A stretch of DNA of 64,000 nt from Candidatus Igneacidithiobacillus taupoensis. Its GTDB lineage: Bacteria; Pseudomonadota; Gammaproteobacteria; Acidithiobacillales; Acidithiobacillaceae. Each line of letters starts with the position of its first letter. The stretch's first letter is position 1. Made by a program: the position numbers and the translations under genes. The stretch lies in the NCBI GenBank assembly GCA_021375695.1, contig JAEPKX010000001.1, positions 62,001 to 126,000 on the forward strand. Direction: 5' to 3'. The notes under the pieces are model-generated. The model searched no databases. It was not told the origin of the DNA and was given only the letters and a program-made list of their open reading frames with translations. Positions 4,721-48,564 of this stretch are shown here, piece after piece.

Positions 4721-5271
4721 AAAATATGCTGCCGGTGTTCCGGGACCTGCGCCAGGAGAAATTCCATTTGATCAGCCAGAATACGCCGGTTGCTCAGCAG
4801 CAAGTACTCTGCCCAGGTCGGAACAAAGGGCACCGCCAGGAGCGGCATACCTGCCTCTTCGGGGGTACGATTATCCTTGCGGCTATTGCACCAGCGGCAG
4901 GCAGTCACCACATTGGTCCAGACATCCTTGCCACGCCGGGAGAGGGGAATCACATGGTCTCGGGTAAGATCCCGTTGGGGAAAGTGGCCACCACAATACA
5001 GGCAAACGTGTCGATCACGGTGAAACAAGGTAGGGTTATTCAGCGCGGGAGGACGAATCTTGCCCAGATGTCGGCCTCGAACCGCAATCACGGGATGGAT
5101 ATCAAGAAAGGAGGCTAGGCCACTGTGGCGAGAAATTCCGCCGTGTGCAGTAAAAAATGGTTCCCCCAAGGTCCATGCCACGTTACCACGGACGTAATGG
5201 GCGGCAGCCTCTTCCCAGGTTTCCCAGGCCATGGGTCGGCCACTGACATCAAGACGAAGCACGAGATGCAT
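4717..5271 (-). CDS. HNH endonuclease family protein
   Basis: 184 residues. The HNH core is clear: CLYCGG, then DLTRDHVIPLSRRGKDVWTN, then CRWCNSRK. This gives the His of the HNH motif plus two CxxC zinc pairs. The N-terminal part (LRLDVSGRP, WEEAAAHYVRGNVAWTLG) belongs to a conserved stand-alone bacterial family often annotated simply as HNH endonuclease; its physiological substrate is not established. ATG at 5271 was chosen because conserved sequence starts there. The frame is open upstream to ATG 5322 and TTG 5343, which would overlap rsmA. It is divergent from rsmA and overlaps pdxA at its end. Confidence 0.82.
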   Translation of the reverse strand: MHLVLRLDVSGRPMAWETWEEAAAHYVRGNVAWTLGEPFFTAHGGISRHSGLASFLDIHPVIAVRGRHLGKIRPPALNNPTLFHRDRHVCLYCGGHFPQRDLTRDHVIPLSRRGKDVWTNVVTACRWCNSRKDNRTPEEAGMPLLAVPFVPTWAEYLLLSNRRILADQMEFLLAQVPEHRQHIF

Positions 5272-5337
5272 TGGCTTTCCGTTGCGAAGGCGCCCGCTTT
5301 GGGCGTCACTGCAATATAGCATGAAGGGGAGCGCAAA

Positions 5338-6153
5338 ATGCAAGTAGCCCCCCTGCCCAGGGCCAAAAAGCGCTTTGGTCAGAATTTTCTGATTCAGCCT
5401 GCCATCGTCTCCCGAATCCTCGACGCAGTGGCCCCAACACCCCAGGATACCCTCGTGGAAATCGGTCCTGGTCCTGGCGCCCTGACCCGTGCGCTACTAG
5501 CGAGGCTTGGCCCTGGAAATGCCCTGCGGGTCATCGAGTTGGACCGGGATCTGCTGCCCGGCTTGCGGTCCCTTGCGCCCCCAGAACAACTAGAAGTCAT
5601 TGCTGCCAATGCCCTGCAAGTGGATTATCTGGCCCTCAGCCAGGAGCTTGGAAAACCCCTGCGCATCCTCGGCAATCTCCCCTACAATATAGCTACCCCG
5701 TTGATTTTTCATCTATTGGAGCAGCGCGCTGCCATTGTTGATCTGCATTTCATGATTCAAAAAGAAGTGGCGGAGCGCATGGCTGCCCTTCCTGGTAGCC
5801 AGGATTATGGTCGACTGTCGCTCATGGTGCAGGCCCTGACCAAGGTAGAAAAATTATTTCTGGTTGGACCGGGCAACTTTCACCCAGCCCCCAAAGTGGA
5901 TTCCATGGTGATCCGGCTTACGCCCCATCGGCCTCCACGGCTCGCACCCGCACTGGAATCGGCCTATGCCCAGGTAGTACGGATTGCCTTTGCTTCTCGT
6001 CGCAAGACCCTTGCCAACAACTTCAAGGGAATCCTCGATCGGGCTATGCTAACCCGTCTACAGATCAGTCCGGAACGGCGGGCAGAAACCCTCTCCTTCG
6101 ACGAGTGCCAACGCCTCGCCGAAGCGCTGTTACAACAAGGAGTCTTCTCATGA
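5338..6153 (+). CDS. rsmA: 16S rRNA (adenine1518/1519-N6,N6)-dimethyltransferase
   Basis: 271 residues, the normal length for KsgA. It dimethylates two adjacent adenines in the 3' terminal helix of 16S rRNA late in small-subunit assembly. Evidence: N-terminal KKRFGQNFL, the SAM-binding EIGPGPGALTRALL, the catalytic motif IV NLPYN, and the C-terminal helical domain. The ATG at 5338 is preceded by GGGGAGCG. In enterobacteria pdxA and rsmA are adjacent in one operon; here the HNH gene has been placed between them on the other strand. It ends with an ATGA overlap into the next gene. Confidence 0.95.
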   Translation: MQVAPLPRAKKRFGQNFLIQPAIVSRILDAVAPTPQDTLVEIGPGPGALTRALLARLGPGNALRVIELDRDLLPGLRSLAPPEQLEVIAANALQVDYLALSQELGKPLRILGNLPYNIATPLIFHLLEQRAAIVDLHFMIQKEVAERMAALPGSQDYGRLSLMVQALTKVEKLFLVGPGNFHPAPKVDSMVIRLTPHRPPRLAPALESAYAQVVRIAFASRRKTLANNFKGILDRAMLTRLQISPERRAETLSFDECQRLAEALLQQGVFS

Positions 6154-7360: not shown

Positions 7361-9103
7361 CTACATCTGGGTTGGGGCTGAAACCCCCAGGAGAGCGAGG
7401 CCATTGGCCAGGGTCTGGGCTACGGCATCCGCCAGGGCCATCCGTGCCCAACGCAGCTGCGGTTGCTCCACCAGAATCCGGGTGGCATTGTAATAGGTAT
7501 GGAAACTTGCGGCCAGGTCCTTCAAATAAAAGGCAATCTGATGGGGCTCCCGATCCAGGGCAGCACTGCGAACCTGCTCCGGAAAACGCCAAAGCAAGGC
7601 CGCCAGCTCTAACTCCTTGGGTTCCGTCAAGAGCGTGAGATCCGGCAACTCCGTAGCTTCGGCCAGGCCTCGCTCGCTCCCCTGGCGATGCAAGGAATGG
7701 ACGCGCGCATGGGCATATTGAATGTAATAGACGGGGTTTTCTTCACTGTGCCTGGTCGCCAGTTCCAGATCGAAGTCCAGATGCTGATCGGCCCGACGAA
7801 GCACATAAAAAAAACGCGCAGCGTCATTCCCTACCTCTTCCCGTAGTTGTCGCAGGGTCACGAACTCGCCCGCCCGTGTGGACATGGAGACTTTTTCCGA
7901 ACCCCGATACAGATTGGCGAACTGCACCAACAACACCTCCAGGCGTTCAGACGCAAGGCCCAGGGCCTCCAGGCTTGCCCGCACCCGCGGGATATAGCCG
8001 TGGTGATCGGCTCCCCACATATCGATGAAACCCGTAAATCCGCGCTGGTATTTTTCGTAATGGTAGGCCACGTCCGAGGCAAAATAGGTATAGGCACCAT
8101 TTTCGCGACGCAAAACCCGGTCCTTGTCATCGCCAAAAGCTGTGGAACGGAACCAAAGGGCGCCCTGCTCTTCGTAGCAGAAACCTGCGGCCTCGAGGGC
8201 CTGCACGGCAGCATGCACCGCCCCGCTCGCCATCAAGGTACGCTCCGAATACCAGTGGTCAAAGCGGACCCCAAAGTCTTCCAGATCGGCATGAATATCG
8301 GCCAGAATTTCCTGCAGGCCAGCACCATGCAGTCGCAGGTACGCTTCCTCCCCCAGAACCGATTTGAGATGGGCAATGAGGGCATCGATGGCTTGGTCGC
8401 CATCCGCATAGCCGGTAAGATCAGGAGCACCCTCCAAAGCAAAGAGAAAACCCTTCCCCTCTCGTTCATACAAGCCTCGGGCGATCTCGCACACATACTC
8501 TCCCCGATAGGCACTGGCGGGAAATGGCCAGGGTAGGCTTTGCCTGGCCGCCTCTACATAGCGCAGAAAAACGCTGGCGGCCAGGATATCCATCTGCCGA
8601 CCGGCATCATTGACATAGTATTCGCAAAAGACCTCAAAGCCGGCATAGCGCAGCAGCTCCGCCAAACTGGCTCCGTAGGCAGCCCCCCGACCATGGCCAA
8701 CATGCAAGGGTCCCGTGGGATTGGCCGAAACAAACTCCAGATGGATCTTTTGACCCAGACCCAAGGACTGCCGACCGAAGTCTTTTCTGGCCGTCAGCAC
8801 CTCTGCAATAACTCTTTGCAACGCTACAGGATGCAAAAAGAAATTCAGAAAACCAGGCCCTGCTACCTCCACCCGCTTGATCCACGGAGAATCAGGCAAC
8901 GCCTCACGGATCCGCTCTGCCAGGTTTCGGGGTGGTAGACCGGCACTCCTGGCGAGCAATAGGGCAATATTGCTCGCCAAATCGCCGTGCTCAACCTGGC
9001 GGGGACGATCGAAATCCAAATGGGCTGGAACTTCGGGAATCACTCCTTGTTGATGCAGGGTCTTCAGGGCCTGTACAAGAGATTCGGCAGCAAAATGTTT
9101 CAA
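7361..9103 (-). CDS. argS: Arginyl-tRNA synthetase
   Basis: 580 residues, the usual class Ia ArgRS length. Signature HIGH motif appears as HVGHGRG, and the KMSKS equivalent as [11 protein letters not shown]. The N-terminal Add1 domain ([13 protein letters not shown] onward) and C-terminal anticodon-binding domain (from about 460) are complete. No ATG is available near the conserved N-terminus. TTG at 9103 gives [13 protein letters not shown] with AAGG upstream, and matches other ArgRS starts. A TTG at 9181 would add 26 residues without similarity. It is divergent from the mechanosensitive channel gene. Confidence 0.95.
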
Positions 9104-9198
9104 TGGGTCAACCTTGTGTCCAAAAGCTTTTTGCGGCAGTGTACCCCATGCAGCGGCTTTGCGGCAGAGGTCTTGCGCCAACTCTCAGGGAATGAAAC

Positions 9199-38635: not shown

Positions 38636-38699
38636 GGTAACATTGCGAATATGTTCTAAATAAGACTGATGATCTGCACCCTAACCAGAGTATTCGTTG

Positions 38700-40946
38700 A
38701 TGGCAAGCAGTCCCAGCATGTTGACTGAAAGCATGGGGCAAGCCAACCCATGGTTCCAGCTTGTAGAGCAGGATGCTCGCTCCCTGGCCGATGTTGGCGA
38801 AAAAATGCTTACAGAGATTCCCCAGCTCTTGGAAGTACTCCATGGCCTGCTGCAAACCCATGCTGAGCAGCTACCTCTCCTGGCAAGGCAAATGGATTCT
38901 CTCTTGGCCGTCTATGAACCGTGGCTTCGCTCGCTGTTCTTGCCCAAAGCCTCCCCAGACTTTTGTGCTACGCAGGAAAATCTGGGCTACCTCCATGCCC
39001 AGCTAGGGATTCCAGCGTGGCTCTTTGCCCAACTGTTTTCCCAGGTAAGAAGGGAGCTTACCCATCTCGTTCTTACCCTCCGGAACGATCCAGTGCCGGC
39101 ATTACTGGCCATCCAGCGCATCCTGGATCTCAGTCAGCATCTTTCGAACCGGGCCTACGTCCGCCAAACCGAACATTCGGTCGTCAAATCCCTCCGCAAG
39201 TTAGCCCAACATCTTACTCCCGAGACGTTCTTTCGGGAGAGTGCCCGGCTTGCCTGCCGCCTCGTCCACGCCGACGGCGCCGCCCTGATCCTGCGGGCTG
39301 GGGATCGCTTGCGGTATGCCTTTTTTGAGGGGCTCCCGGAAGGCTACCGGGCCTTGGGAGAGTTTGATTTTTCCGCCATGGAGGGCGCTGCGGGAGCTGC
39401 TCTGCAGACAGCGGAACCAGTCTATCTTCCCCATTACCCGACAAGCTCGTTGGCCATACCAGCTTTTGTCGAAGCCGGGCTACAGGCTAGTCTGGCCATT
39501 CCCCTCATGGGTACCGAAGATGGCTTGGGGGTGCTTGCCGTCTCCTGGTTCACCAGCCCCGCCCAGGAACGTATCCCTGAGGATCAGTGGGACTATCTCC
39601 GCCTGTTGGGTGACATGCTGGCGGGCGTTTTGTACCGCTCGCAACTGGAATCCAAACTGGAAAGCCTTGCCACCCGCGATCTGTTGACGGAATTGCCCAA
39701 CCGTCGGGCCCTTCCTGATCGAATTACGAGCGCCATCGCCCGGGCCGATCGACATCATAATCTGCTGGCCGTGCTTTTTTTGGACCTCGACGGCTTCAAA
39801 CCCATCAATGATCGCCTGGGACATGCCCGTGGGGATGCTACATTGAAAATGGTTGCGGGGGATCTACGGCGGGCCCTACGCATGGGTGATTCCTTACTCC
39901 GCTATGCGGGCGATGAATTTATCGTCCTCCTGGAAGAAATTGCTTCCATGGAGGAAATCGAAGCAGTGGCGGATCGGCTCTTGGCCACCGTACGTCGAGT
40001 GGTAGAGGGGGATGGCTTGGCCTTGCCACTAAGCGCCAGTATTGGCATCAGCGTCTACCCTTTTGATGACTCTCCTCCCGAAAGCCTCGTTCATCACGCG
40101 GATCTGGCCATGTATCGGGCGAAAGGGGCCGGCGGCGATACCTGGCAGATCTTTGATGGGGAAGAAGGAGGCGCAGACCAACGGCGATTGCTGCTGGGTG
40201 ACCTCCACCGGGCCCTGGAACTGGAGCAATTTTGCCTATTTTGGCAACCCATCGTGGACCTTCGCACGGGGGCAATCCGTGGGGCGGAAGCCTTACTGCG
40301 CTGGCAACATCCCGTCCGCGGCCTCCTCCCCCCGGGGGAGTTTCTTGCGCTCCTGGAGAAATCGCCGCTGATTCACCCTCTGGGGCAGTGGATTTTGCAC
40401 AGCGCGCTGCAACAAACGGCACGCTGGCATGAGCAGGGAAAGAACTGGGATGTACACATCAATCTGGCAGCGGCACAGCTCGAAGATAAGGGCTTTGTGC
40501 AACAGTTGGCCGTCACCCTGGAGCACTTTCCTACCTTGGAAAGGGATAAGGTCTGGCTGGAAATTGTCGAGCGGGTGGCCCTTGAGGACGTCCGTGCTTC
40601 CGCGCGGATGATTCAAGCCTGCCGAAACCTTGGGGTCCATTTCACTTTGGATGATTTTGGGACGGGGGCTGCGGCGCTGCAGTATCTGGCGGAGCTGGAG
40701 TGCTCCGGACTCAAGATCGACAGGGGTTTGGTTCTCCCCATGAAAACCAGCACCAAACACCATACCATGGTCCGCACCCTGGTGGAGATGGCAAGATCTC
40801 TCTCGGTTACGGTGGTTGCGGAGGGAGTGGAAGACGCGGAGACTGTCGCCCACTTGGCAGCGCTAGGGGTAAGCTACGCCCAGGGATATTATTTCAGCCC
40901 TCCGGTGCCTGTGGAGCAATTGTCGGATCAACGGCACTGGAAATAG
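38700..40946 (+). CDS. Globin-sensor-like GAF-GGDEF-EAL c-di-GMP protein
   Basis: 748 residues, no signal peptide or membrane span. An all-helical N-terminal region (about 15-160) contains LGYLHAQLGIPAWLFAQLF, resembling the F-helix of globin-coupled sensors with candidate proximal His99. A GAF domain (about 165-315), GGDEF domain (about 325-485; AGDEF at 403-407, inhibitory RxxD at 394-397) and EAL domain (about 497-740; EALLRW at 530, DDFGTG at 651, QGYYFSPP near the end) follow. Both enzyme motifs look intact, so it could make and degrade c-di-GMP. ATG 38700 is weakly supported. Its end overlaps the next gene by 53 bases. Confidence 0.9.
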   Translation: MASSPSMLTESMGQANPWFQLVEQDARSLADVGEKMLTEIPQLLEVLHGLLQTHAEQLPLLARQMDSLLAVYEPWLRSLFLPKASPDFCATQENLGYLHAQLGIPAWLFAQLFSQVRRELTHLVLTLRNDPVPALLAIQRILDLSQHLSNRAYVRQTEHSVVKSLRKLAQHLTPETFFRESARLACRLVHADGAALILRAGDRLRYAFFEGLPEGYRALGEFDFSAMEGAAGAALQTAEPVYLPHYPTSSLAIPAFVEAGLQASLAIPLMGTEDGLGVLAVSWFTSPAQERIPEDQWDYLRLLGDMLAGVLYRSQLESKLESLATRDLLTELPNRRALPDRITSAIARADRHHNLLAVLFLDLDGFKPINDRLGHARGDATLKMVAGDLRRALRMGDSLLRYAGDEFIVLLEEIASMEEIEAVADRLLATVRRVVEGDGLALPLSASIGISVYPFDDSPPESLVHHADLAMYRAKGAGGDTWQIFDGEEGGADQRRLLLGDLHRALELEQFCLFWQPIVDLRTGAIRGAEALLRWQHPVRGLLPPGEFLALLEKSPLIHPLGQWILHSALQQTARWHEQGKNWDVHINLAAAQLEDKGFVQQLAVTLEHFPTLERDKVWLEIVERVALEDVRASARMIQACRNLGVHFTLDDFGTGAAALQYLAELECSGLKIDRGLVLPMKTSTKHHTMVRTLVEMARSLSVTVVAEGVEDAETVAHLAALGVSYAQGYYFSPPVPVEQLSDQRHWK

Positions 40947-43900
40947 AGAACGCCTGTAAACCAGAATGTTCTCGCGCTGCCAGTTCGCGGCAAAGCCTTT
41001 GGGCAAGCGCACGCATCTGTTTTTGCACAGCCACGCGCTCCTGGATGGTGCTCTTTTGGGTCAGTTGATGGAGCCGGTCATGGACACCTTTGGCAAGGGC
41101 AAAGCTGGGTAGGCAGCCATACTTATCCTCTTTCTGGGCAAACCAGGTACTGAGAGGACAGGAGTGCAAGGGAGTGTCGCTGGTGTGTTGGCGGGATCGT
41201 GGATCCTCCTTACTGTGGATAAGGAGTGCCAAATCTTCCAATGGACAAAGCGCGCAGCGGGAGCGCGGTAACGGTAGAAGCCAGGAATACCAGGTGAAAA
41301 AGGCATTTTCCGGCAGGGGTGGTGAGAGATGATATCCCTGGATACGGCTCCCTCCCATCTGCATCCAGAGTGAAAGATCCGTGGGCGAGGCAATCCCTTC
41401 GGCAATGAGAGAAAGTCCAGAAAGCTCGCTGAGCAAACGAGCGGCCCCTGCCACGGCAAAGCTGGCCTGATCGAGACCAAAATTACGAACGAAATCCTGA
41501 TCGAGTTTGAGTTCGTCGAAGGGAAGTTTTGCCGCATACATGAGAGAAGAATAGCCCGTGCCGAAATCATCCATGGCTAAGCGAAAACCCCGATCCTTGA
41601 TGGCATTGGCAAGGGCTGCCGAGGTCTTGAGATCAGCCAGGGCAACGGACTCGGTGATTTCCAAGGTGATTCCCCTGCCCTCGGGGCAGTGTTCGTCCAG
41701 ATCATCCAGAAAAGCTGGGTGCAGAAAATGGCGGGCACCGATGTTGAGGGAAATCCCCAAATCCAGCCCTTCCGCCCGAAAACGTTGGCGGAAGCGGTCA
41801 GCTTCTTGCATTGCCCATACGCCCAAGCCCCGAATGAGATGAATGTCTTCTTCGACGGTGGCAATAAACTTCCCAGGGCTCTGCCACCTGCCATGATCCT
41901 CACGCCAACGGGCCAACATTTCTACCCCGATCAGTTTCCCCGCCAGGATATCCGCCTGCGCTTGCAAGAAGAACTGCACGGCACCGCTAGCAATGGCGCG
42001 GGGGAAGTGCTGATGCACCCAGATGCGGCGTTGGGAAAGTTGCGAAACGGCTCCGCCATAGACCCGGAAGGTGGATTTCCCAGCATCTTTGGCTGCGTAC
42101 ATGGCATCGTCGGCATGGGCGAAGAGGGAGTCAAAATCCTCGCCATCCTCGGGGAAGATTGCCCAACCGAGGCTCGCGCTGATGGGCATCTCCGTTACCG
42201 CTGCCGCCGCACTGACCACCGCCATGAGCATACGCTCTGAAATGGGCGTCAAATCTTCCCTATCTTGCAGGGATAGATGCAAGCCGAACTCATCACCACC
42301 GAGTCGGGTCACCACATCACCGCCGCGAAAAATGCTCTGTAATCGTCGAGCAATGCTTTGGAGCAGTCGATCACCTGCACCATGCCCCAGCACATCGTTC
42401 ACCTGCTTGAAACCATCGAGGTCCAACACCCCAATGGCCAATGGTTTTTGCTCCCTACGTGCCCGCGCCAGCGCCTCCTGGCCACTGCGCTGAAAATATG
42501 CGCGATTGGGCAGATCGGTCAACGGATCGTGAAGAGCTAGATATTGTTGACGATCCCGCTCCTGGCGAAGGGCCTGACGCAGATCCAACTCAGCCAAGCC
42601 ATGTCCCAGAATGTCCGCGATACGACTCAGCAATTCCAGCAATGCTTGCCGAAAAATTTCGGGTTGATTGCCGATCACCACCAGAATGGCCCATCGCTTC
42701 CCATCACGACGTATGGGGACGGCTGCCGCCGAACGCCAGCCGTAGCGCAGCAAAAAATTCCGCCAAGGACGCAACTGCTGGTCGGCCAGGTGATCCTGAT
42801 GAAACTGGATCTTGCCGCTTTGCCAGGCTCGTGCAATCAGTGCCGGTGCACCATCCCCCGGATTTTCCACGGGAATCCGTAACTGCTGCAGGGCTTGGGA
42901 GCCGGGACCGGAAGCAGCTAGATAGCGAAAGAAATGACCCTCTGGGTCTGGCTGGCCGATCCAAGCAGCAATAAAGAGGCCGCTTTCCACCAGCCGATGG
43001 CAGGTGTCGCGAAGCAAATGCCGTTCATCACTAGCGCGGAGCAGGAGCTCACCCTCGGCCATGAGGGCTTGGTACAAAGCGGTAAGCTGTGCCAGCGCCC
43101 GTCGATCGGCATCCTGCTGTAAAGCCAATGCGGTCGCCTGGATCATTTCGCCAATGACTTGCTGCAGCTCCGGCGAAAAGGTGTCGGCACGGCGAGCCAA
43201 GATCACCACCACGGCCACCGGCTCTGCATCGGGAGCGAGTTGCATGGGCCATGCACCGACTGCACCGATACTAGCCAGGGGTTCCTGGCGCCAGCGATCT
43301 GGCAAACGGAGGTCTTGGGCAGGATGCTGACGGAAGGTGGGGCTTCGGGTCGACCAGGCCAACGCCGGAAGGGTAACCATTCCAGTCGGATCGGGCTTTT
43401 TTTGGGGAGTGGGCAGTGTTTGGATGTACTCGGCCATGGGCCCCATGGCGCAAAGACGTTCCAATACCGGCGATTCTGGGTTTGAGAGGAGTACATCCAC
43501 CCCTTCCGTATCGGCAAACCGGATGAGGTTGCTCGCCAATGCATGGAAAATATGCTGGGAGTCTGGTTGGCCTAGAAGTTCCTGCTGTAAATGGCGCTGC
43601 GCTTCCCGATAGCTTTGCAGAGTTTGAAGCCTTGCCTGCAAGGACTGACGATTCCAAAAAGCGGCCAGTTCCTGCACCAAACTAACAACGAGATGCTGAA
43701 CACCCTCTGCAAAAGCAGAACCAGTTCTCCGATACAGGGAAAGAGTGAGCACACCACCATCTTCCCGCGGCGCAACAGCCACCATACTACCGCCTACCCC
43801 AAAACGTTCCGCCCGTTCTTTCCAGGGACGAAAAGAGGCTTGTTTCCAGTCCTGGGATATATCGGAAATGATCTGTACTTTTCCGGTACGAATCGCCAGA

Positions 43901-44652
43901 CCCAGCGGACCCTGTCCTTCAGAAATGGAGGCGTCGCTACTGACCCGCAAACCATTGGCATATTCCTGGGCAGGACCAGTGGCGGCAAGCACTTCGACCC
44001 AAGTGTCCCCGGGGGCCAGCGAACCAATCCAAACCAAGGCCAGATCGAGAATTTCCACCACCCGTCGAGCAGCCTCTTGCAGCAGGGGGACGGTCTCTTG
44101 TTGCCCCGCGCCACTGGTAAGGGCAGCAATTTCTGCCAGCGCTTGGTAAAAGCGTTTTTGGGTCTCCAGGACGTCCAGGGAGGCTGCTTCATACCCTTCC
44201 ATCTGCCAAAAACGATCCAGTTCAATGCGCTTGCGAATCGCTCGCCGCAGTCTCTGCCGCTCTTGGGCAGACAAGTCGGGCAAGGCCAGGGCGGCGGTCT
44301 GCAGCTCCTCCAAATACAAGGTATAGATCCCATGTAACCACGCACTGGGCAGGCCCATGGCCTGATGCATTGCCCCAAGACGATGCAATGCCTGCCGTCT
44401 TTGCTCATCATAGGGAAGCAGCAGCAGTTCCTGATAATGACGTGCTTGCCCAGCCCGCAACCGTGCCCAGGCACCGGCATCAAGCTCTGCCAGCATGGAT
44501 TCCGTTTCGGGAATATGGCGTAACCAAGCGGAAAGATGTTCGGCAAAGTTCCAGGCCCGCTCGCGGGTGCACAACAACGGCCCAACCCTCCCAAGGAGCA
44601 AATCTTCTTCTGGGGAGCACACCAAAAAAGAGGGGGTCGATGACAATGGCAT
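40894..44652 (-). CDS. Globin-sensor-like, triple-GAF, GGDEF-EAL protein with CZB-like tail
   Basis: 1252 residues, cytoplasmic. Order: helical globin-sensor-like region (about 25-165, candidate heme-ligand His96 in LGAMHQAMGLP); three GAF-like regions (about 170-340, 355-515, 525-695); GGDEF domain (about 703-865; GGDEF at 785-789 with RxxD I-site at 776-779); EAL domain (about 870-1120) where EAL reads EML (911-913) but DDFGTG (1028) and IQGYHLSPP are kept; and a C-terminal Cys/His region (1133-1200: C1133, C1136, C1165 in CPLSTW, H1191xxxH1195) resembling zinc-binding CZB domains. It probably controls c-di-GMP in response to gas or redox and zinc signals. It begins one base after the ABC permease gene. 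Confidence 0.9.
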   Translation of the reverse strand: MPLSSTPSFLVCSPEEDLLLGRVGPLLCTRERAWNFAEHLSAWLRHIPETESMLAELDAGAWARLRAGQARHYQELLLLPYDEQRRQALHRLGAMHQAMGLPSAWLHGIYTLYLEELQTAALALPDLSAQERQRLRRAIRKRIELDRFWQMEGYEAASLDVLETQKRFYQALAEIAALTSGAGQQETVPLLQEAARRVVEILDLALVWIGSLAPGDTWVEVLAATGPAQEYANGLRVSSDASISEGQGPLGLAIRTGKVQIISDISQDWKQASFRPWKERAERFGVGGSMVAVAPREDGGVLTLSLYRRTGSAFAEGVQHLVVSLVQELAAFWNRQSLQARLQTLQSYREAQRHLQQELLGQPDSQHIFHALASNLIRFADTEGVDVLLSNPESPVLERLCAMGPMAEYIQTLPTPQKKPDPTGMVTLPALAWSTRSPTFRQHPAQDLRLPDRWRQEPLASIGAVGAWPMQLAPDAEPVAVVVILARRADTFSPELQQVIGEMIQATALALQQDADRRALAQLTALYQALMAEGELLLRASDERHLLRDTCHRLVESGLFIAAWIGQPDPEGHFFRYLAASGPGSQALQQLRIPVENPGDGAPALIARAWQSGKIQFHQDHLADQQLRPWRNFLLRYGWRSAAAVPIRRDGKRWAILVVIGNQPEIFRQALLELLSRIADILGHGLAELDLRQALRQERDRQQYLALHDPLTDLPNRAYFQRSGQEALARARREQKPLAIGVLDLDGFKQVNDVLGHGAGDRLLQSIARRLQSIFRGGDVVTRLGGDEFGLHLSLQDREDLTPISERMLMAVVSAAAAVTEMPISASLGWAIFPEDGEDFDSLFAHADDAMYAAKDAGKSTFRVYGGAVSQLSQRRIWVHQHFPRAIASGAVQFFLQAQADILAGKLIGVEMLARWREDHGRWQSPGKFIATVEEDIHLIRGLGVWAMQEADRFRQRFRAEGLDLGISLNIGARHFLHPAFLDDLDEHCPEGRGITLEITESVALADLKTSAALANAIKDRGFRLAMDDFGTGYSSLMYAAKLPFDELKLDQDFVRNFGLDQASFAVAGAARLLSELSGLSLIAEGIASPTDLSLWMQMGGSRIQGYHLSPPLPENAFFTWYSWLLPLPRSRCALCPLEDLALLIHSKEDPRSRQHTSDTPLHSCPLSTWFAQKEDKYGCLPSFALAKGVHDRLHQLTQKSTIQERVAVQKQMRALAQRLCRELAAREHSGLQAFSISSAVDPTIAPQAPEG

Positions 44653-44653
44653 G

Positions 44654-45433
44654 TTAGCGCAACAAACGTCGACGCAGGAGGTAGGCAGCTATGCCATAGC
44701 CAAATAGTCCATAGGCACCCAAGACCGCCAGATGCAGCGGCACCTGACTCGGCAGATGACCCGTCAGCAAGGGCCGCAACAGGAGTACTGCGTGGGTCAG
44801 TGGCAGTAGCCCAGCAAGCATCTGGGCAAGCTTGGGCAGACTGTGCAAGGGATAAAACACCCCGCAAAAAAGAAACATGGGAGTGATGGCCAGAGTAAAG
44901 TAGTACATAAAGAAATCATAACTGCGGGAGAGGGCAGTCACCGCCAAGGCCATGGCCCCAAAAACAAAACCAGTCAGCAAAATGATGGGCAGGGCGAGCC
45001 ATGCCCACGCCCAATCCACCGCCCCAAAGAAGGCCGCCACCAGCACAATGGCCACGGCACTAATGGCCCCTTTGACAGCGCACCAGAGCAGCTCGCCCAT
45101 GACAATGTCACCAATCTGCAGTGGGGTAGCCAGCAAAGATAGGTAGGTCTGCTGCACGGCCATACGGGTATAGGCGGAATAGAGTCCTTCAAAGGTTGCC
45201 GTATTCATGGCGGAGCTGGCCACGATCCCCGAGGCAATGAAAGTCAGATAGGGCATCCCCTCCATGCGCCCCACATAGTGCCCAAGGCCATAGCCCAAGG
45301 CCAGCAAATAGAGCAAAGGATCGATAAAATTACCCAGCAGGCTCGGCAACAAAAGCTTACGCCATACCAGTAGATTGCGGCGCACCAGTGCCAAGGCGCC
45401 CCAGCCTGGAAAGAGGGAATTTTGCCTGTTCAA
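44654..45433 (-). CDS. ABC-2 type exporter permease (NodJ-like)
   Basis: 259 residues with six predicted spans. It starts RRNLLVWRKLLLPSLLGNFIDPLLYLLALGYGLG and contains GIVASSAMNTATFEGLYSAY and CGVFYPLHSLP, as in NodJ and related ABC-2 permeases. Together with the upstream ATPase it forms an exporter; NodIJ exports lipo-chitin oligosaccharides in rhizobia, but here the cargo is unknown. TTG at 45433 overlaps the ATPase stop and has GGAGG four bases upstream, making it the best available start. Confidence 0.88.
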   Translation of the reverse strand: MNRQNSLFPGWGALALVRRNLLVWRKLLLPSLLGNFIDPLLYLLALGYGLGHYVGRMEGMPYLTFIASGIVASSAMNTATFEGLYSAYTRMAVQQTYLSLLATPLQIGDIVMGELLWCAVKGAISAVAIVLVAAFFGAVDWAWAWLALPIILLTGFVFGAMALAVTALSRSYDFFMYYFTLAITPMFLFCGVFYPLHSLPKLAQMLAGLLPLTHAVLLLRPLLTGHLPSQVPLHLAVLGAYGLFGYGIAAYLLRRRLLR

Positions 45434-46362
45434 GATGCCTCCTCGCGCAATTCTCGGCCGGTCAGTCGCAGAAAAACATCTTCCAGGGTCGCTGGCCGGA
45501 GCAGGAGTTGGTACTGGGGTTCGGCGGCAAAATGGGCGCGCGCGGGATCCAGGTCTCGGTCGAAGAGCAACAAGGTATCTCCGGCTCGTTCCGCGGCAGC
45601 GACCCTCCCTTCATGCCAGTTCTCTGGGTCGGGGAGCATACCGTCCCGCCGGCGCAGTTCCAGTACATCACCGGGGATATGGGTACGGATTAACATCGAT
45701 GGGGTGTCTTCGGCCAAGAGGATGCCCCCATCCAGGATTCCGACCCGGTCTGCCAGTCGCTCCGCTTCATCCAAATAATGGGTCGTGAGCAGTAAGGTCA
45801 CGCCTTCCCGTTGCAGGGTCCGCAGCCGCGTCCAGAGGAGATGTCGGGCCTGGGGATCCAGGCCCGTGGTCGGCTCATCGAGGAGCAGCAAACGGGGGGC
45901 ATGGATGAGGGCCCGGGCCACGGCCAGTCGACGACGCATACCCCCCGACAGGACTTGAAGCGGGCGGTGGGCGTACTCCGTCAGCATCATCAAGGCAAGC
46001 AGTTCTCTGCTACGCTGGCGGATTTGCCCCTTGGGCAAGCCAAAGTAGCGTCCATAGATCCAGAGATTTTCTTCCACGGTAAAATCCGGGTCGAGCTGAT
46101 CTCCCTGCGGCACCACCCCCATGAATTCGTGGCCGCCTGCGGGCCATTGCGCAAGGGGCAGGCCATCGAGCAGAATGGTACCCGAAGTCAGCGGCGTCAG
46201 TCCTTGGATACAGCGAATGGTCGTACTTTTACCAGCCCCGTTGGGTCCCAAAAGGGCATAGCATTCCCCCACCCCTACTGCCAGACTTACCCCCTGCAAA
46301 ACGGCTCGCCCGCCGTAGTTCTTGTGCAGGGCACAAAGCTCAAGGCGCGGCAAAGTCGGCAC
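45430..46362 (-). CDS. ABC-2 type exporter ATPase (NodI-like)
   Basis: 310 residues from GTG 46362. Walker A GPNGAGKST, signature LSGGMRRR, Walker B LLLLDEPTTGLD and H-loop TTHYLDEAERL are intact, and the C-terminal extension has the ABC-2 exporter character. ATG 46416 is an alternative that would add 18 unconserved residues and lengthen the overlap with the hydrolase gene from 23 to 77 bases. It pairs with the following NodJ-like permease through an overlapping stop and start. Confidence 0.9.
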   Translation of the reverse strand: MPTLPRLELCALHKNYGGRAVLQGVSLAVGVGECYALLGPNGAGKSTTIRCIQGLTPLTSGTILLDGLPLAQWPAGGHEFMGVVPQGDQLDPDFTVEENLWIYGRYFGLPKGQIRQRSRELLALMMLTEYAHRPLQVLSGGMRRRLAVARALIHAPRLLLLDEPTTGLDPQARHLLWTRLRTLQREGVTLLLTTHYLDEAERLADRVGILDGGILLAEDTPSMLIRTHIPGDVLELRRRDGMLPDPENWHEGRVAAAERAGDTLLLFDRDLDPARAHFAAEPQYQLLLRPATLEDVFLRLTGRELREEAS

Positions 46363-47059
46363 AGGGTTTCCCAGGGGCAGCGGGCAATTGCGGCGCCAGT
46401 TCGGCCAACAAGGCATCCTGCAGGCGATTCAGGGCGCCATGGAAGAAATGGTCGGCGGTGAGTTCCAGATATCGGGCCGCAACACCCTGCTCTTTCACCC
46501 ACCCCCGCACGGCCTCCGCAGGGACCAACTCATCTTCCCGGCCCTGGACAATGGTCCATGGACAAGTGGGCATGGGCACTTTGGAAAAATCAAAGAGATT
46601 CACCGGGGGAGCGATCGTAAGGAGCCGCCCAACGCGAGGATCCTGGGCCGCCTGATAGGCCACATAGGCCCCAAAGGAAAAACCTGCCAGCCAAATGGGA
46701 AAACCGGGACGACGCTGCTCCACCCAATCCATTACCGCCAAACAATCGGCCACCTCACCGCGCCCCTGGTCATAATGGCCACCACTCCTCCCCACACCGC
46801 GAAAATTGAAGCGCAGGGAGGGAATCCCCAGGCGATTGCAAATGCGGCTCAGGTAATGCACCACCTTATTTTGCAGGCTTCCCCCATAGAGAGGATGGGG
46901 ATGAAGAATGACCGCAACCACGCCCTGACTTTCCCGTTCCGGGCAAGCGGTAAGACCCTCCAGAGGCCCCGCCGGACCCGGAATCCAGACCGTCTCACCC
47001 ACACACTCCAGGGCGACTTCCTGGCCATCGTACAGATGACTGCGATCGATGGGCAGCAT
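46340..47059 (-). CDS. Alpha/beta hydrolase of the COG2945 type
   Basis: 239 residues. Typical elements are VILHPHPLYGGSLQNKVVHYLSR, RFNFRGVGRSGGHYD, the nucleophile elbow AGFSFGAYVA (Ser), the Asp-containing QGREDELVPAE and the late ADHFFHG with the catalytic His. This conserved bacterial family is often described only as a predicted hydrolase; substrate unknown. The ATG shares one base with the stop of the preceding ferredoxin gene. It lies ahead of the NodIJ-like exporter genes in the same operon. Confidence 0.87.
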   Translation of the reverse strand: MLPIDRSHLYDGQEVALECVGETVWIPGPAGPLEGLTACPERESQGVVAVILHPHPLYGGSLQNKVVHYLSRICNRLGIPSLRFNFRGVGRSGGHYDQGRGEVADCLAVMDWVEQRRPGFPIWLAGFSFGAYVAYQAAQDPRVGRLLTIAPPVNLFDFSKVPMPTCPWTIVQGREDELVPAEAVRGWVKEQGVAARYLELTADHFFHGALNRLQDALLAELAPQLPAAPGKPCADFAAP

Positions 47060-47376
47060 CAGATCCGCAAACGATCGACGATCTTGCCGTCACGGAGATG
47101 GGATTCCACCAATTCGATCACATCCTCTCCGTCCACATAGGTGTACCAAACCCCCTCCGGATAGACCACGGCCACCGGGCCCTCGCTGCAACGCCCCAGG
47201 CAGCCCGCGCGGTTGACCCGCACGAGCCCCTCGCCATGCATACCAAGAGCCTTGGCATGCTTCTTGGCCAGATGGAACATCTCCTCGGCAAGGCCGTGGT
47301 TGTTGCAGGCCTGCTCCCCATTTTCCCGGCGATTGAGGCAAAAGAACAGATGCCGTTGATAGTAACTGGATGCCAC
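47059..47376 (-). CDS. Thioredoxin-like [2Fe-2S] ferredoxin
   Basis: 105 residues. Four cysteines are placed as in the thioredoxin-fold [2Fe-2S] ferredoxins: C13 and C24 (FFCLNRRENGEQACNNHG, Cx10C) and a later GCLGRC (Cx3C), followed by GPVAVVYPEGVWYTYV. Proteins of this group are small electron carriers or NuoE-like subunits; the partner is unknown. It is the first gene of the five-gene minus-strand operon that ends in the 1252-residue GGDEF-EAL protein. Confidence 0.9.
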   Translation of the reverse strand: MASSYYQRHLFFCLNRRENGEQACNNHGLAEEMFHLAKKHAKALGMHGEGLVRVNRAGCLGRCSEGPVAVVYPEGVWYTYVDGEDVIELVESHLRDGKIVDRLRI

Positions 47377-47378
47377 AT

Positions 47379-47407
47379 TTGACCCCTTGGTGTGATCGCG
47401 CCATGAT
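47379..47407 (+). promoter_or_regulatory. Candidate sigma70 promoter for coq7
   Basis: TTGACC at 47379-47384 and CATGAT at 47402-47407 are separated by 17 bases, 30 bases before the coq7 ATG. The -10 match is only fair (4 of 6). It overlaps the first codons of the divergent ferredoxin gene. Confidence 0.35.
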
Positions 47408-47437
47408 ACTCGAAATTACCTTTTTGGTCAGAATATC

Positions 47438-48067
47438 ATGGATTTTGCTGACTCCTTGATCCTATCCATTGACAACGCCTTACGCACTTTGACCGGGGAG
47501 AGCCGGGGCACGGGCCGTCCCAACCCTGGTACGTCCCACCCCGACCGCCTCCTGCGACCCTGGGAGCGGCAAAAATCTGGGCGAATGCTGCGCGTAGACC
47601 ATGCCGGCGAAGTCATGGCCCAAGCCCTCTACACGGGCCAAGCAGCCGGCAGCCACGATCCGGAACTCCAGGCAACCCTCCGCCAGGCCCGTTCCGAGGA
47701 AGAAGATCATCTCCGCTGGTGTGCGGAACGTTTGCAGGAGTTGGGTAGCCGTCCCAGTCTGCTTGGTCCCCTCTGGTACGCCTCGGCCTGGGGGATGGGA
47801 TTTGCAGCTGCGCGCATGGGCAAAGAAGCCAATCTAGGCCTGGTAGTTGCCGTTGAAAATCTGGTGGAAGACCATCTCGCCGGACATCTCCACGATTTAC
47901 CTGAAAAAGATCAGCGCAGCCGGGCCATTCTGGAGGAAATGCAAAAGGATGAAATCGGTCATGCGGAAAAGGCCGAAAAGCTTGGCGCCAGGGAATTGGC
48001 TGCTCCACTGCGGCTGGCCATGGGCGCGTTGAGCAAGATCATGACCCGCAGCGCTCTTTGGCTCTGA
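47438..48067 (+). CDS. coq7: Coq7-type 2-polyprenyl-3-methyl-6-methoxy-1,4-benzoquinone monooxygenase
   Basis: 209 residues. This is a ferritin-like diiron hydroxylase acting in ubiquinone synthesis (the demethoxyubiquinone step). Carboxylate/His ligands are visible in LRVDHAGEVMAQALYTGQ, EEEDHLRWC, VENLVEDHLAGHL and DEIGHAEKA. It replaces the flavin enzyme UbiF of E. coli, as in many other proteobacteria. It is a single gene, divergent from the ferredoxin operon and 11 bases short of the convergent Rrf2 gene. Confidence 0.94.
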   Translation: MDFADSLILSIDNALRTLTGESRGTGRPNPGTSHPDRLLRPWERQKSGRMLRVDHAGEVMAQALYTGQAAGSHDPELQATLRQARSEEEDHLRWCAERLQELGSRPSLLGPLWYASAWGMGFAAARMGKEANLGLVVAVENLVEDHLAGHLHDLPEKDQRSRAILEEMQKDEIGHAEKAEKLGARELAAPLRLAMGALSKIMTRSALWL

Positions 48068-48078
48068 GATCCGGAAAA

Positions 48079-48564
48079 TCAGGCTCTGGGTCGCAGTGGT
48101 ATGCTCTTCCCAGGCAGATGGATTCGATACCGTCCCGCCCGCACGGCTTCTGCCATACTACCAATGGTTTGCTTACTCAATAAGTCGATGACTTCGGCCT
48201 TCAACGGTTTCCAGGCATAGTGGACAGGACAGGCGGTAGCGTCCTCACAGCGTTTCAGGCCCAACACGCAACCCTGTCCCAGGGGTTTGCGCTCGACGAT
48301 TTCGACCACATCCAGAATGTTTTTGCGTTCGGCCCCTGGTGCCAGGACAAAGCCCCCGCCACGCCCCTTGCGGGACTCCAGGACCCCGCTTTTACTCAGG
48401 TCCTGCAAGATCTTGGCCAGGTATTGGCGGGGCGGTACGCGGGGATCGTCGGGATCCCGCAGATATTCCCAAATCTCGTTACTCAAGACTAACTGACCGG
48501 GGGGCTGGGTGGCCAGGTAAATGAGGGCCTGCAGGGCATATTCACTGGTCTTGCTGAGGAGCAT
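48079..48564 (-). CDS. Rrf2 family transcriptional regulator, probably Fe-S binding
   Basis: 161 residues. The winged helix N-terminus reads LLSKTSEYALQALIYLA, with LAKILQDLSKSGVLESRKGRGGGFVLA as recognition helix and wing. Three cysteines, in CVLGLKRC and ACPVH, are spaced C-x6-C-x5-C, close to but not identical with the C-x5-C-x5-C of IscR; this suggests an iron-sulfur sensor. It ends the long minus-strand Calvin-trp run, two bases after the OsmC gene. The target genes are unknown. Confidence 0.9.
   Translation of the reverse strand: MLLSKTSEYALQALIYLATQPPGQLVLSNEIWEYLRDPDDPRVPPRQYLAKILQDLSKSGVLESRKGRGGGFVLAPGAERKNILDVVEIVERKPLGQGCVLGLKRCEDATACPVHYAWKPLKAEVIDLLSKQTIGSMAEAVRAGRYRIHLPGKSIPLRPRA

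Follow-up and report, generated by a model that had tools for sequence, protein, structure and literature searches.

Does a run of five closely packed genes in Candidatus Igneacidithiobacillus taupoensis, ending in a giant c-di-GMP enzyme, form one functional module, or does it join parts of different age? The window, a stretch of 64,000 nucleotides, corresponds to positions 62001-126000 of a 188-kb contig (C28) of genome G000, a 1.73-Mb draft in 62 contigs that is 98% complete. The first-pass annotation had described five tight minus-strand genes, and the open reading frames and their junctions were confirmed. In reading order, these genes encode a ferredoxin (fdx; 47059-47376), an alpha/beta hydrolase (46340-47059), a NodI-type ABC ATPase (45430-46362), a NodJ-family ABC-2 permease (44654-45433) and a globin-coupled GGDEF-EAL enzyme of 1252 aa (40894-44652). 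The fdx/hydrolase junction is TGATG, and the hydrolase and ATPase genes overlap by 23 bases, given a likely GTG start at 46362 for the ATPase (stop at 45430); this start yields a 310-aa product, VPTLPRLELCA..., similar to the N-termini of its relatives. The ATPase and permease genes overlap in TTGA, the permease having a TTG start, and the permease and enzyme genes lie one base apart (TAA-C-ATG).

The first four genes are best interpreted as a unit for envelope export that includes an esterase-like hydrolase and a small ferredoxin, the predicted substrate and role being drawn from protein families. The exporter had been called NodIJ-type, and this assignment was upheld: the permease, which has hydrophobic segments, scored above the cut-off of the NodJ model TIGR01291 (231.9 bits versus 206.65), and the ATPase, in which Walker A, the signature LSGG and Walker B are all present, was closest to NodI models, with a best score of 304.2 bits that falls below the equivalog cut-off of 521. 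The hydrolase matched the Hydrolase_4 and Abhydrolase_1 profiles, both above cut-off, and carries a G-F-S-F-G nucleophile motif. The ferredoxin, of the 2Fe-2S thioredoxin-like type, matched fdxn_Clost and PF01257 below cut-off, with its four cysteines (C13, C24, C59 and C63) arranged as expected. No nod genes were present among the neighbouring genes identified, which places the locus outside a lipo-chitooligosaccharide (nod) context. Judging from family, NodIJ would most likely export an envelope lipid or glycolipid-like substrate, and the hydrolase would most likely act on that substrate or its precursor.

The NodJ gene was found in 29 of the 29 family genomes; NodI and the hydrolase adjoin it in the loci read, and the ferredoxin gene is present in every Acidithiobacillaceae locus read that reaches fdx. 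The longer family loci comprise TrpD-TrpC-OsmC-Rrf2, a divergent coq7, and then fdx-hydrolase-NodI-NodJ, where the sequence reaches. The named relatives in the NodJ search were Acidithiobacillus species. In a wider collection, consisting of the best 80 loci by NodJ search, the four genes stood together in one orientation in 61 of the 70 loci with enough upstream sequence, and most betaproteobacterial relatives within these 80 loci had them in the same order. By this gene-order comparison, fdx-hydrolase-NodI-NodJ appears to be an old, conserved operon of Acidithiobacillia and Betaproteobacteria; no name for an operon of fdx, hydrolase and ABC-2 genes was found in the literature.

The intergenic region between coq7 and fdx (47377-47437, minus strand) contains a putative operon promoter and ribosome-binding site, with a conserved -10-like TATNAT and a AGGGGTCAA-like block that were kept in an alignment of about 32 family loci. 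A consensus promoter match (CTGACC-17-TATCAT) was located in this gap at 47431-47403, in consensus promoter and terminator scans that overall gave results near the shuffled expectation. The four-gene operon would be driven from this region, which is shared with the divergent coq7. An Rrf2-family regulator (48079-48564, minus strand) with an IscR/NsrR-like C-x6-C-x5-C motif (C99, C106 and C112) is possibly an Fe-S sensor controlling the coq7/fdx region; among the closest members of the genus, its sequence is about 91% identical. The divergent placement of coq7 and fdx (region 47059-48067) was seen in the family loci read, and the 2Fe-2S ferredoxin could, as an idea only, be the electron donor for the Coq7 hydroxylase.

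The fifth gene encodes a protein without a transmembrane segment, whose N-terminal region and tail had been overlooked in the first-pass annotation: the five genes had been called correctly, and the Protoglobin domain, the GAF domains, a probable CZB domain and a convergent second gene had been missed. From the N-terminus, all on the minus strand, we identified a Protoglobin domain (residues 39-155; 44188-44538; PF11563, 46.9 bits against a cut-off of 25), a first GAF domain (residues about 190-329; 43666-44085), a GAF domain preceding GGDEF (residues 541-684; 42601-43032), a GGDEF domain with an intact GGDEF and an RxxD inhibitory-site motif (residues 706-860; 42073-42537), and an EAL domain (residues 882-1112; 41317-42009). 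In the last of these, EML replaces EAL and the other catalytic motifs are present (EML, N, EITE, DDFG, K, EG, Q); both domains are strong family matches and, by motif, look intact and are predicted to be catalytically competent. A probable CZB zinc-binding domain follows (41056-41220; PF13682, E 2.2e-4, 22.0 bits, below the cut-off of 29.4) and was also found in the orthologue described below.

Within the globin, alignment to AfGcHK and HemAT places His96 at their GxxH-type proximal heme histidine, and the residue is kept in the orthologue. Leu44 occupies the position of the HemAT distal tyrosine in a HMMER alignment that is weak there, which makes the ligand preference uncertain. An AlphaFold model of the globin from a single sequence, of moderate confidence (pLDDT 64.7), had its best matches among the HemAT, AfGcHK, Geobacter GCS and DosC globins (probability 1.00, TM 0.5-0.6, E ~1e-3). 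On its domain content, the enzyme is classed as a soluble globin-coupled c-di-GMP sensor of the already catalogued acidithiobacillus kind; acidithiobacilli commonly have c-di-GMP enzymes with a protoglobin domain (PMC6416229), for which oxygen has been put forward as the signal (PMC4331095). That the enzyme itself senses gas is a well-supported prediction from its motifs and globin model. The earlier suggestion that a redox or gas signal feeds c-di-GMP survives for the gas (heme-ligand) signal, received through the enzyme's own globin, and the ferredoxin is dropped as the sensor. As far as domains and motifs can tell, the giant protein would most likely bind heme via His96, act as a cytosolic sensor of O2 and/or NO, and shift between c-di-GMP synthesis and breakdown, like the characterised sensor DcpG.

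The second Protoglobin-GAF-GGDEF-EAL gene lies on the plus strand (38697-40946; His100 in the globin motif). The two genes differ from each other and are convergent, their 3' ends overlapping by 53 bases, and both products retain the globin-motif histidine. Six of the roughly ten GGDEF/EAL genes of the genome are located on the contig that contains the window.

The distribution of the giant enzyme differed from that of the four-gene block. Its N-terminal 690 residues had one clear orthologue, with 64% identity, in a genome of another genus (G021); this was also the only full-length orthologue found, with 68% identity over 1220 residues. There, the gene is on contig C32 and has a divergent MFS gene, not NodIJ, as its neighbour; the NodJ gene of that genome is on contig C62. 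The 397 other genomes of the phylum gave no match to the enzyme at E<=1e-55. Genes downstream of NodJ vary among family genomes, and none of the other family genomes with downstream sequence had a same-direction GGDEF-EAL gene after NodJ; in one of them (G022), the GGDEF-EAL gene at this place is unrelated and convergent. Among the best 80 loci, 63 had 3 kb of sequence downstream of NodJ; in one of them, this stretch contained a GGDEF/EAL match, in the opposite orientation.

On the other flank of the c-di-GMP genes in the window, the ABC-F/PanD/MFS genes form a separate conserved segment in relatives. In seven relatives, the MFS gene and NodJ share a contig and are separated by 61-396 kb, distances being taken as the shortest path with contigs treated as circular. 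Since the flanking segments are this far apart in closed relatives, NodJ stands at a breakpoint, and the window joins two distant segments, the two globin-coupled genes lying where they meet. The enzyme may have been gained in this lineage or lost in others; its orthologue in another genus could point to loss elsewhere rather than recent gain. Routes of acquisition were also considered. A recent plasmid import was discarded: none of the plasmid records covered 80% of the sensor region, and every matching place was below 60% identity. Base composition was uninformative as a sign of foreign origin (GC 0.56-0.58, against about 0.58-0.60 around), and a tRNA-linked insertion was set aside, with no tRNA in the window.

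The self-contained five-gene module of the first-pass annotation was thus not borne out: the four-gene block is conserved and the fifth gene is not, and the enzyme's orthologue stands elsewhere without NodIJ. The gene-neighbourhood comparison showed that the five-gene order is not conserved in relatives, the outcome that the first-pass annotation had itself named as refuting its proposal; this rules out a conserved five-gene module. As the giant enzyme gene follows the operon in this species only, the five genes represent a recent neighbourhood and not a proven joint system. Tight gene junctions can be maintained by selection; the one-base spacing between nodJ and the GGDEF-EAL gene suggests translational coupling, and co-transcription of the enzyme gene with the exporter genes is possible in this species. 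As to joint function, adjacency argues for co-transcription at most. We consider it probable that the locus consists of two parts of different age, namely an old exporter block and an enzyme gene found next to it at a rearrangement breakpoint, and only in this lineage, with c-di-GMP acting via general effectors. Read-through from the fdx promoter may reach the enzyme gene and would then set the enzyme dose; the enzyme's c-di-GMP output would act through general effectors such as PilZ proteins, which are encoded elsewhere in the genome, and not specifically on the exporter.

A rather unlikely reading is that a promoter inside nodJ drives the c-di-GMP gene separately, that this gene has no functional tie to the exporter operon, and that their adjacency is a mere chance of rearrangement. 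The species-specific junction at the breakpoint is consistent with this, as is the orthologue, which is the first gene of its own unit, next to a divergent gene; however, a consensus scan, a weak test, found no sigma-70-like site just upstream of the GGDEF-EAL gene, and the one-base spacing favours read-through. That the five genes are a true module, in which gas-controlled c-di-GMP from the last of them acts directly on the NodIJ exporter to regulate it, seems very unlikely. The tight, overlapping junctions and the gas-sensor domain fit such a module, and in Pseudomonas putida the expression of the related ABC-2 genes yadG/yadH changes with c-di-GMP/FleQ (PMC8125075). This makes a c-di-GMP link to such an exporter "not absurd", as a lead only, and was the sole lead in the literature on YadGH and betaproteobacterial NodIJ relatives. 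Against it, the arrangement occurs in one species, the orthologue is without NodIJ, and a Pfam scan of the four operon proteins detected neither PilZ nor any other c-di-GMP-binding domain; specific control of the exporter by the enzyme's c-di-GMP is unsupported. We likewise give little credence to a newly formed regulatory module, in which the operon would have captured a heme-globin c-di-GMP enzyme and one transcript would link export-gene expression to an O2/NO-controlled c-di-GMP pool. Because the draft has 62 contigs and relatives have the two flanks far from each other, one might suspect that assembly wrongly joined two unrelated pieces, but this is highly improbable: the complete NodJ C-terminus is kept at the junction, the enzyme start codon fits the alignment to the orthologue (from residue 7 on), and GC content is continuous.

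The reading as two parts of different age sets a conserved, uncharacterised exporter operon apart from a lineage-specific gas-sensing c-di-GMP enzyme, and illustrates that close gene spacing alone is no proof of a functional module. The exporter operon deserves attention for itself, in acidithiobacilli and betaproteobacteria alike.

Among known systems, the enzyme resembles DcpG of Paenibacillus dendritiformis, in which O2 leads to c-di-GMP breakdown and NO to synthesis (PMC10882959), as well as the GCS-GAF-GGDEF-EAL protein of A. caldus and AFE_1712, all of which have an N-terminal protoglobin with a proximal histidine followed by GGDEF and EAL domains (PMC6416229, PMC10882959). AFE_1712 (Protoglobin-GGDEF-EAL-CZB) also shares the CZB tail (PMC6416229, PMC10882959). 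Unlike these three proteins, the enzyme has at least two GAF domains between globin and GGDEF, and EML in place of EAL. The exporter is like NodIJ/YadGH-type ABC-2 exporters in its NodJ-family permease and NodI-like ATPase, but differs from them in that its ATPase falls below the NodI equivalog level, no nod genes are adjacent, and its partners are a ferredoxin and a hydrolase. Elsewhere, the conserved operon can contain a GST-like gene before NodI, in some Rhodocyclales, or be preceded by a VanZ-like gene. In an Aromatoleum relative (L064, 6322-6933), the GST-like gene sits between the hydrolase and NodI; locus L053 has a VanZ-like gene ahead of fdx and a UPF0093 gene after NodJ (4751-5908 and 8750-9160). 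The locus described here has the same four genes in the same order as the conserved fdx-hydrolase-ABC-2 operon, with a species-specific fifth gene in addition.
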